Assembly: GCA_029572935.1 (NCBI GenBank)
Contig: JAKQHM010000024.1
Span: 35,547 to 99,546 of the forward strand
Origin: Bacteroidota bacterium
Lineage (GTDB): Bacteria > Bacteroidota > Bacteroidia > Chitinophagales > Saprospiraceae
Length of the DNA: 64,000 nt
Direction of reading: 5' to 3'
Within the stretch, counting starts at the first letter, position 1; every line of letters begins with the position of its first letter. Position numbers and translations under genes: made by a program. Shown here piece after piece: positions 9,171 to 46,305 of the stretch. A model generated the notes under the pieces. It was given only the letters and a program-made list of their open reading frames with translations, did no database searches and was not told the DNA's origin.

Positions 9171-10019
9171 TTATATTTGAAAGGATTTAATGCTTTGTCT
9201 TATGCTGATATAATGGAGTCCAGGACCTGTGATCAGAAGAACGACGACTGTGATGAGAAAATTTTTCAGGTCCAGTAAATGATATACCCACGGTGCCATA
9301 TAATATAATACCAACAGGGCCAGCCCCAGCATGCTGACTGCCATCAAGGCGCTTGCCAGGCCATGGATAATCGCTAGTCGGGTGTAAGGACCTGCAATTT
9401 TTCCGGGTTCTGCTCCCAGAAGCCCCATCAGGCGAATGACGGGCGCTTTTGTTTGAAAAAAGATACGCACCAGGTACCCGATGATAAAAAAAGCCATCAG
9501 AGCAAGCAGGAGGGTAGAAAAAACCAATACGGTCTTGACCTTGCGGACAGAGTCTGAAAATCCTGCCTGTCCTGCGATGGGATTGGATGCCGAACTGATG
9601 AAACCAAAACCTTTGAGGAATTCCTGTAGTCTTGAAATGGAGGCCTGTTCATCCTGTTCGGGGTCCAGGTTCAGTACGATCAGATCGAAAAAGGGGTTTT
9701 CACCGGGTGAAAGGGCCAGGTCTTGTTCTTTGCTCATTTCTTGGACAGCACGGTCGCGCGGGATCATGGAAACGCTTTTGGATACAATGCCAGGCAAGCT
9801 TTCCAGTTTGTCCATAAGGTATTTGAGGGAATCTGACTGGTATCCGGGTCTCAGTTCGATGACAAATGGTGTTTCTGTCCGAATTCGTTTTTCCAGCCTG
9901 ATCGAATGCACAAAAGCCAGAAATGCCAGTCCTACCAATGACAATACCAAGGCCACGGCCAGCACATGGAGGAGATTGGAGCTTCGCGTTTCTGAGATCA
10001 GATTAAGAAATTTTTGCAA
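9171..10019 (-). CDS. ftsX: Cell division protein FtsX-like permease
   Basis: 4 TM, extracellular domain after TM1, FtsX-like C-terminus; conserved position upstream of DUF3098-uppP-truB. Start appears to be TTG. Confidence 0.85.
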   Translation of the reverse strand: MQKFLNLISETRSSNLLHVLAVALVLSLVGLAFLAFVHSIRLEKRIRTETPFVIELRPGYQSDSLKYLMDKLESLPGIVSKSVSMIPRDRAVQEMSKEQDLALSPGENPFFDLIVLNLDPEQDEQASISRLQEFLKGFGFISSASNPIAGQAGFSDSVRKVKTVLVFSTLLLALMAFFIIGYLVRIFFQTKAPVIRLMGLLGAEPGKIAGPYTRLAIIHGLASALMAVSMLGLALLVLYYMAPWVYHLLDLKNFLITVVVLLITGPGLHYISIRQSIKSFQI

Positions 10020-44229: not shown

Positions 44230-44904
44230 ATGTCTGCACATCTGATCACTGCCCGAAAACTTTCCATTTCTCATGGCAATCACTTGATATTTAATGAATT
44301 AAATCTGGATATCTGCGAAGGTGAATGGGTGGAGTTCATTGGGCCCAACTCATCAGGCAAATCCAGTCTTCTGAATGCCTTTTATGGCCTGGCCAATGAT
44401 ATATCCGGTCAGTTGAACGTTTTGGATTTTAGCCTCAATCCTGTTCAAAAGGATTTTCAGTCAGCGAGAAGGAAAATGGGTTTTTTTAGCACCCGGATAC
44501 CGCTCCTGGATGACAGAACCGTCAGGGCTAATCTGGCTATTGCATTAAATGCAGCAGACCGGGTCAAAGATCTCTCCGGAGACCAGGGAATATCTGAATT
44601 GTTGTCAAAATTCGGACTGCTCGACAAAATATCCAATCCGGTTTCCGACCTCTCTTCAAGTGAAAAAGCGATGGTCATGCTGGCCAGGACCATGATCCAT
44701 AAACCCAGGCTGATCCTCCTGGATGCAGCCTTTGATTCATTGGATGACCAAAGGGTCCGCATGGTCAAAGGGGAACTGGAAAATATGGTGCGGAGGGATG
44801 GTTGCTGTCTGATTTCCACAGGGGTTGAGCTCAAACCGCACAGCCCGGAACAGAGAAAAATCATGTTCATTGAGGATAAACAGGTCCGCATTATTGGGTC
44901 CTGA
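44230..44904 (+). CDS. FtsE-like ABC protein with degenerate ATPase motifs
   Basis: GPNSSGKSS Walker A kept; RRKMGFFSTRIPLLDDRTVRANLAIAL aligns to the FtsE Q-loop region; LSSSEKAMVMLARTMIHKPRLILLDAAFDSLDD aligns ungapped to the FtsE signature/Walker B. Confidence 0.75.
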   Translation: MSAHLITARKLSISHGNHLIFNELNLDICEGEWVEFIGPNSSGKSSLLNAFYGLANDISGQLNVLDFSLNPVQKDFQSARRKMGFFSTRIPLLDDRTVRANLAIALNAADRVKDLSGDQGISELLSKFGLLDKISNPVSDLSSSEKAMVMLARTMIHKPRLILLDAAFDSLDDQRVRMVKGELENMVRRDGCCLISTGVELKPHSPEQRKIMFIEDKQVRIIGS

Positions 44905-44935
44905 TATAGCCTTGCTTCTTGTTCCCGGGCTTGCT

Positions 44936-44943
44936 TATCTTTG
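44936..44943 (+). promoter_or_regulatory. Putative -7 element TATCTTTG for ffh
   Basis: TTG (44912-44914), 21-nt spacer, TATCTTTGCAGCCCC; ATG at 44968. Confidence 0.55.
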
Positions 44944-44967
44944 CAGCCCCGTACTTAAATCTGGAAT

Positions 44968-46305
44968 ATGTTTGAAAGTTTGAATGAAAAGCTCGAATCC
45001 GCCTTTAAAAGCCTAAAGGGTGAAGGAAGGTTAACGGAACTCAATGTCGCTGAATCCATTAAAGAGATCAGAAGGGCCTTGGTGGCTGCGGATGTCAATT
45101 ACAAGATAGCAAAGGAATTTACAGATAAAGTAAAAGAGCAGGCTCTCGGGACCCGCAATGTTTTACAATCGGTAAAACCCGGGGAGCTCATGGTCAAGAT
45201 CGTCATGGACGAATTGGTGGAGCTCATGGGAGGGCAGGCCGCAGGCCTCAATCTCAGTGGAAATCCCTCGGTTATTTTAATTTCCGGTTTGCAGGGTTCC
45301 GGTAAAACCACTTTTTCCGGTAAGCTGGCTCATCATCTGAAGAATACGAAAAATAAAAAGGTCCTCCTCACTGCCTGCGACGTGTACAGACCTGCGGCCA
45401 TTGATCAGCTTACTGTTTTGGCTGAACAGATCGGCGTGGAAATTTTCAAGGACGTGGAAAGCAAAGATCCTGTCGATATTTCCCAAAGGGCCATCCGGTA
45501 TGCTGCAGATCAGAAATTGGACGTGGTGATTATCGATACCGCCGGCCGTACTGCTGTGGACGAGGAAATGATGAATGAGATCGAAAGAATCAAAAATTCA
45601 ATCAATCCTTCCGAAACTCTTTTTGTCGTGGATGCCATGACGGGACAGGATGCAGTGAATACGGCACTTGCCTTCCACGAAAGGATTCGATTTGACGGAG
45701 TTGTGTTGACAAAAATGGATGGGGACACCCGGGGTGGTGCCGCACTTTCCATCAAATACACCGTAGGCAAGCCTATCAAATTTGTTTCGGCAGGGGAAAA
45801 AATGGAAACCCTCGATGTGTTTTATCCGGACAGGATGGCACAAAGGATCCTCGGCATGGGGGACATCGTATCACTGGTTGAAAAAGCTCAGGCCAACTTT
45901 GATGAAAAGGAGGCTAAAAAGATCGAAAGCAAAATTCGCCAGAATAAATTTGATTTCAATGACTTCCTCGTTCAGCTCAACCAGATAAAGAAGATGGGCG
46001 ATATCAAGAGTCTTCTGGGGATGATTCCGGGCGTTGGGGGAGCTATTAAGAATCTCGACATCGACGACAAAGCCTTCAGCAAAGTAGAATCCATCATCCA
46101 GTCCATGACCCCCACAGAAAGGTCGAATCCGGATATGCTCAACATGTCCAGAAAGACCCGCATTGCGAAAGGCTGTGGAAGGACCATCCACGAAGTAAAT
46201 GCCTTCATCAAGCAATTTGAAGAAATGAGGAAGATGATGCACATGATGAGCAAGGGAAACAACATGGCCAATATGATGAAGCAAATGCAAAATATGCGCC
46301 GCTGA
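44968..46305 (+). CDS. ffh: Signal recognition particle protein Ffh
   Basis: GLQGSGKTTFSGKLA, DVYRPAAIDQL, DTAGRTAVDEEMM, TKMDGDTRGGAALS, Met-rich C-terminus. Confidence 0.97.
   Translation: MFESLNEKLESAFKSLKGEGRLTELNVAESIKEIRRALVAADVNYKIAKEFTDKVKEQALGTRNVLQSVKPGELMVKIVMDELVELMGGQAAGLNLSGNPSVILISGLQGSGKTTFSGKLAHHLKNTKNKKVLLTACDVYRPAAIDQLTVLAEQIGVEIFKDVESKDPVDISQRAIRYAADQKLDVVIIDTAGRTAVDEEMMNEIERIKNSINPSETLFVVDAMTGQDAVNTALAFHERIRFDGVVLTKMDGDTRGGAALSIKYTVGKPIKFVSAGEKMETLDVFYPDRMAQRILGMGDIVSLVEKAQANFDEKEAKKIESKIRQNKFDFNDFLVQLNQIKKMGDIKSLLGMIPGVGGAIKNLDIDDKAFSKVESIIQSMTPTERSNPDMLNMSRKTRIAKGCGRTIHEVNAFIKQFEEMRKMMHMMSKGNNMANMMKQMQNMRR

Follow-up and report, generated by a model that had tools for sequence, protein, structure and literature searches.

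The window, that is, the whole stretch of 64,000 nucleotides that was analysed, contains at 44230..44904 on the forward strand an open reading frame encoding 224 aa plus a stop, which we describe here, from the ORF and its alignment, as a non-catalytic FtsE orthologue (a pseudo-ATPase). Its product matches the ABC nucleotide-binding domain (PF00005) at 79.6 bits. In 9/9 genomes of the genus, whose members are Saprospiraceae-like bacteria, the gene that follows on the same strand is ffh (44968..46305), the SRP GTPase, identified from sequence; ftsE lies directly upstream of it (44904-44968), an SRP linkage reminiscent of the E. coli ftsY-ftsE-ftsX arrangement. The expected membrane partner, ftsX, is encoded on the minus strand at 9171..10019 (TIGR00439, E 6.6e-18). 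A scan for promoters and terminators gave no information on operon structure.

We compared the motifs of the protein by alignment with E. coli FtsE and with 27 canonical FtsE from related genomes, and all substitutions named in the initial annotation of this ORF were present. Walker A (GPNSSGKSS, residues 38-46; 44341..44367, forward strand, as for all features of this gene) is intact, and its G43-K44 is invariant in 9/9 orthologues. Also intact are S142 of the signature, D165 of Walker B, and R80 (44467..44469; 9/9 invariant), which corresponds to E. coli FtsE R78, a residue that contacts the FtsX coupling helix in that species (PMC11491553). The segment DRTVRANL (44512..44535), which adjoins the FtsX cavity, has T97, R99, and N101 invariant in 9/9. 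At the Q-loop position Gln86 of E. coli is replaced by Thr88 (44491..44493), and four of the nine orthologues retain Gln. The signature reads LSSSE in place of the canonical LSGGE (44650..44664), with G140 and G141 becoming S143 and S144; its L-S is present in 9/9, and G140 and G141 in 1/9 each. Within Walker B (LILLDA, 44710..44727) the Asp is retained in 9/9, and the catalytic Glu163 has become Ala166. The switch His195 is missing from the H-loop region (ISTGV, 44812..44826), where the position falls on G198 or V199 according to the choice of alignment. The same alignment shows further losses at F85, D87, Q144, R145, A161, the PTGN of the Walker B/D-loop, P170, and A193. Structure prediction from the window protein alone, made without an alignment, was unusable (pLDDT 36).

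Each of the 8 remaining genus genomes contains a single orthologue, with 29-38% identity to the window protein. Because the same catalytic losses recur in these separately assembled genomes, sequencing error and chance are excluded and the singleton explanation is ruled out; the initial annotation had already judged sequencing error unlikely, and the alignment of orthologues that it proposed shows a lineage-wide loss, in 9/9, rather than one decayed copy. Both the catalytic Glu and the switch His are found in 0/9. The residues at position 163 of the nine orthologues are A, Q, C, Q, C, N, N, D, and C, and the substitute varies by subclade, as expected if the position is free to drift. The complete ATPase motif set (Glu163, His195, LSGGE) is missing from the genus orthologues, and given that Glu163 and His195 are lacking in all nine and the signature Gly residues are mostly gone, we use the term FtsE orthologue rather than FtsE ATPase. 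The 27 canonical FtsE, which come from other genera, retain every motif apart from one conservative Ser/Thr exchange.

When the 48 positions with at least 95% conservation among canonical FtsE were scored, 15 were kept, 10 mixed, and 23 lost in the genus; those kept include the nucleotide-binding core and FtsX-side residues, and those lost include the hydrolysis and sandwich-dimer machinery. Sixteen alignment positions are invariant across the nine orthologues. In E. coli numbering these are G40, K41, L44, G57, R78, L90, T95, N99, L122, L138, S139, R150, L160, and D162, together with positions 80 (Lys) and 97 (Arg), which are variable in canonical FtsE. The second FtsX-contacting residue, Arg79, is Arg in 6/9 and Lys in 2/9, next to Arg78 in 9/9.

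These patterns bear on the possibility that slow ATP hydrolysis persists, either by means of a non-canonical base or in a heterodimer with a canonical ABC subunit that would leave one active site. Walker A and the Walker B Asp are retained in the genus, an Asp three residues past the missing Glu (column 166) occurs in 5/9, and the window genome has many canonical ABC subunits; heterodimeric ABC exporters in which one site is degenerate are also well known (PMC7756269, PMC12038006). Column 166 is, however, Arg or Ile in the other 4/9, and no unpaired canonical NBD was recognised adjoining ftsX or ftsE in the loci examined, except gldA, which has its own permease. In a heterodimer it is usually the degenerate half whose signature, still intact, completes the active site, whereas the signature glycines are lost in 8/9 of these proteins. 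We consider continued slow hydrolysis unlikely.

FtsX is present at full length in 9/9 genus genomes, with the coupling-helix motif LG[AG] in 9/9 (one of them MGA) and the Gly matching E. coli FtsX G262 retained in 9/9. In E. coli, R78 and R79 of FtsE form hydrogen bonds with the FtsX coupling helix at K259 and G262, and either of the mutations R78A and R79A impairs division (PMC11491553). The order of genes at the ftsX locus, in the members read, is ftsX, a short DUF3098-like gene, uppP, truB, and gldA; uppP is missing from the ftsX-DUF3098-uppP-truB locus in three genomes (G004, G005, and G008; loci L133, L134, and L136). The initial annotation drew attention to the roughly 34 kb between ftsX and ftsE; the ftsX gene is real, but since the two genes are also unlinked in the canonical relatives examined, the distance is unremarkable.

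The protein may instead have left FtsX for another task, such as one with the signal recognition particle, and its same-strand adjacency to ffh in 9/9 genomes would fit such a role. Yet E. coli ftsE also adjoins an SRP gene, ftsY, so the ffh linkage alone says little. The FtsX-docking Arg and neighbouring residues have stayed invariant despite the loss of catalysis, FtsX evolves at a similar rate and was never lost in the genus, and FtsX would be without a recognisable NBD if this FtsE had departed. A role away from FtsX seems to us improbable.

We estimated selection from pairs of genomes. In the pair G007/G005, dN/dS was 0.134 for this ftsE and 0.169 for ftsX, with values of 0.034-0.046 for two canonical ABC ATPases and Ffh; in the pair G004/G008, in which synonymous sites are near saturation, ftsE gave 0.108. 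A dN/dS of about 0.13 indicates a functional gene, and the ORF is intact in 9/9 genomes at about 32% identity. The gene is under purifying selection that is less tight than that on working ATPases. The mean amino-acid distance within the genus is 0.68 for the ftsE product versus 0.22 for Ffh, a fast evolution that a decaying pseudogene would also show, but intact ORFs in 9/9, dN/dS values of 0.13 and 0.11 in two pairs, and 16 invariant positions lead us to reject decay as very improbable. Pairwise distances of FtsE and FtsX gave a partial correlation of 0.72 given Ffh (p 0.0002), and the control CcmF reached 0.82 with FtsE in the same test; because the control equals or exceeds the FtsX signal, the rate correlation is not specific, and we reject a specific FtsE-FtsX co-evolution and do not count this result as evidence.

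Assignment to FtsE was examined with profiles of FtsE and of four other ABC subfamilies, built from paralogues. The FtsE profile scored highest of the five for 9/9 genus proteins, and in profile-profile comparison the genus family scored 292 against FtsE and at most 212 against the other subfamilies. FtsE was also the best NCBIfam model over the nine members (1.6e-35), and of the PDB chains with a single NBD it was the best match. In the TIGR02673 search suggested with the initial annotation, the window protein did not reach the curated cut-off (82.7 versus 264.85 bits), and a canonical Saprospirales FtsE likewise fell under it at 231.7 bits. In a maximum-likelihood tree the nine proteins formed one clade (98/99) on a long branch, and the fork that it shares with FtsE and one other group of paralogues was weakly resolved. 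The gene is divergent from and adjoins ccmE-ccmF in 5/9 genus genomes, and in six further genera of the family canonical ftsE is found at this same place (ccm gene names were assigned from sequence). Judged by profile affinity and by this shared gene position, the product of 44230-44904 is an FtsE orthologue, as the initial annotation had it.

A CcmA-like heme-exporter ATPase, suggested by the ccmE-ccmF neighbours in 5/9 genomes and by CcmA being the top NCBIfam match of the window protein (99 bits, slightly above the FtsE model), is highly improbable: 99 bits compares with a cut-off of 195, FtsE rather than CcmA is the best model across the nine, E. coli CcmA scored lowest of all rows against the family profile, other genera carry canonical FtsE at the same ccm-adjoining position, and ccmB matches lie on other contigs, with none found in five of the nine genus genomes (one of them incomplete). 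We rejected this identity on the nine-member NCBIfam result together with the subfamily profile scores.

A canonical ftsE elsewhere in the genome, a possibility raised with the initial annotation, was sought with a profile of canonical Saprospirales FtsE in the 9 genus genomes and 52 outgroup genomes. Canonical FtsE was recovered in 43 of the 52 outgroup genomes (E <= 5.7e-81), and among the matches listed all others were at 7.5e-52 or weaker. The same profile found no canonical FtsE in the nine genus genomes, where nothing was better than 1e-48, and a second canonical copy in the genus was rejected on this search. Given that the window genome is 66.8% complete, the question had to be settled in its relatives; the other eight genus genomes, at 97-100% completeness, contained none.

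Every genome of the genus also encodes one putatively secreted protein of about 375-410 aa. It combines a long coiled coil with a LytM domain that, like that of EnvC, seems to have lost its zinc ligands. The name EnvC is used by architecture only, and NCBIfam gave only weak LytM-family matches. Proteins of this kind occur in nine outgroup genomes examined, and none was seen in G012, a genome without FtsEX. Within the genus, these coiled-coil/degenerate-LytM proteins (G000:C6:35362 (L224) and its counterparts) have a mean distance of 0.70 and evolve as fast as FtsX.

FtsEX is taken to couple ATP hydrolysis by FtsE to the activation of cell-wall hydrolases. The retention of phosphate-binding and FtsX contacts alongside the loss of catalysis is best explained by ATP binding without hydrolysis, which would hold or gate FtsX, and we put a probability of roughly 0.6 on a genus-wide FtsE that binds but does not hydrolyse ATP and is still docked on FtsX. 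In the ancestor of the genus, the sole FtsE would have lost the Walker B Glu, the switch His, the signature glycines, and the D-loop consensus, and selection would have retained the degenerate protein as the partner of FtsX on the cytoplasmic side. Mg-ATP would most likely still be bound via Walker A and the Walker B Asp, and FtsE would dock on the FtsX coupling helix through its conserved Arg. Rather than a cycling motor, a non-hydrolysing clamp or binding-only switch would then set the state of the FtsX/EnvC-like complex. The initial annotation had likewise proposed a nucleotide-bound, non-hydrolysing scaffold for FtsX; the selective retention of Gly-Lys, Asp, Ser, and the docking Arg is consistent with this, but as the signature glycines are gone in 8/9, ATP binding might not close the dimer, and if the ATP sandwich cannot close without them FtsE would be a structural clamp. 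The sequence losses, their conservation pattern, the orthology, the lack of a canonical copy, and the selection were observed; from them we infer ATP binding, the lack of hydrolysis, docking on FtsX, and control of an EnvC-like activator. Counting against a non-hydrolysing FtsE docked on FtsX are the tree, in which the long-branch clade is not firmly joined to FtsE, and the low TIGR02673 score, with CcmA slightly ahead for the window protein alone.

In described FtsEX, ATP binding joins two FtsE, and FtsX relays the motion either to EnvC or straight to a hydrolase (PMC11627006). The proteins of the genus resemble the FtsE of these systems (type VII ABC; E. coli, S. pneumoniae, and M. tuberculosis) in length, in the Walker A Lys, Walker B Asp, and Arg78, in the LL-x-(D)-R/K-T-V segment, in the presence of FtsX in the genome, and in a gene position shared with related genera. 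They differ in having no catalytic Glu, switch His, signature Gly, or D-loop consensus, in keeping the Q-loop Gln in 4/9, in their fast evolution, and in scores far under the TIGR02673 cut-off. Loss of the Walker B Glu, switch His, and signature consensus with Walker A kept is also seen in degenerate-site ABC exporters (type IV; PMC7756269, PMC12038006), but in those one site of the heterodimer stays active; with the single FtsE gene found here, a homodimer would have two inactive sites. The laboratory ATP-trap E163Q of E. coli FtsE alters the same residue and causes a strong division defect (PMC11491553), which argues that loss of hydrolysis is not neutral in the E. coli system. Gln at this position is natural in 2/9 genomes, and whereas E163Q as a single change impairs E. 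coli division, in the genus the change is fixed in nature, and the His and the glycines of the signature are gone as well. A literature search, for which subscription papers were largely out of reach, found no description of a non-catalytic FtsE.

This FtsE orthologue falls outside the ATPase part of the family definition. FtsE is normally an ATP-driven cell-wall switch, and going by its residues the form in this genus probably works without burning ATP. We see even odds that a complete FtsEX/EnvC-like cell-separation system runs genus-wide without ATP hydrolysis, with FtsE as a nucleotide-binding or structural clamp; if so, hydrolase activation would be set by binding, by FtsX/EnvC abundance, or by divisome contacts, and not by an ATPase cycle. 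The genus offers a natural separation-of-function experiment, with the catalytic residues gone and FtsE, FtsX, and the EnvC-like activator under selection, and it poses the question of whether hydrolysis, ATP binding, or the FtsE-FtsX contact alone is the indispensable part.

In a sample of 298 genomes of the family the degenerate form was observed in this genus alone, the 24 best other matches inspected being canonical; the threshold was 1e-36, and FtsE that had degenerated independently in another genus could have fallen outside it. Four family members that are 95-100% complete (G012, G014, G025, and G032) had neither a canonical FtsE nor a full-length FtsX match, indicating that the system can be lost in the family, and loss of FtsEX seems to have happened in several of its lineages. 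The degenerate FtsE could be an intermediate on the way from a working motor to loss, but by the selection data it remains in use. A diverged FtsX adjoining uppP is encoded at G029:C4:36799-37497 (L137:3156-4043, minus strand), in a genome of the family that is 99% complete and in which no FtsE, canonical or degenerate, was detected; it is either an orphan FtsX or the partner of an NBD too diverged for recognition.
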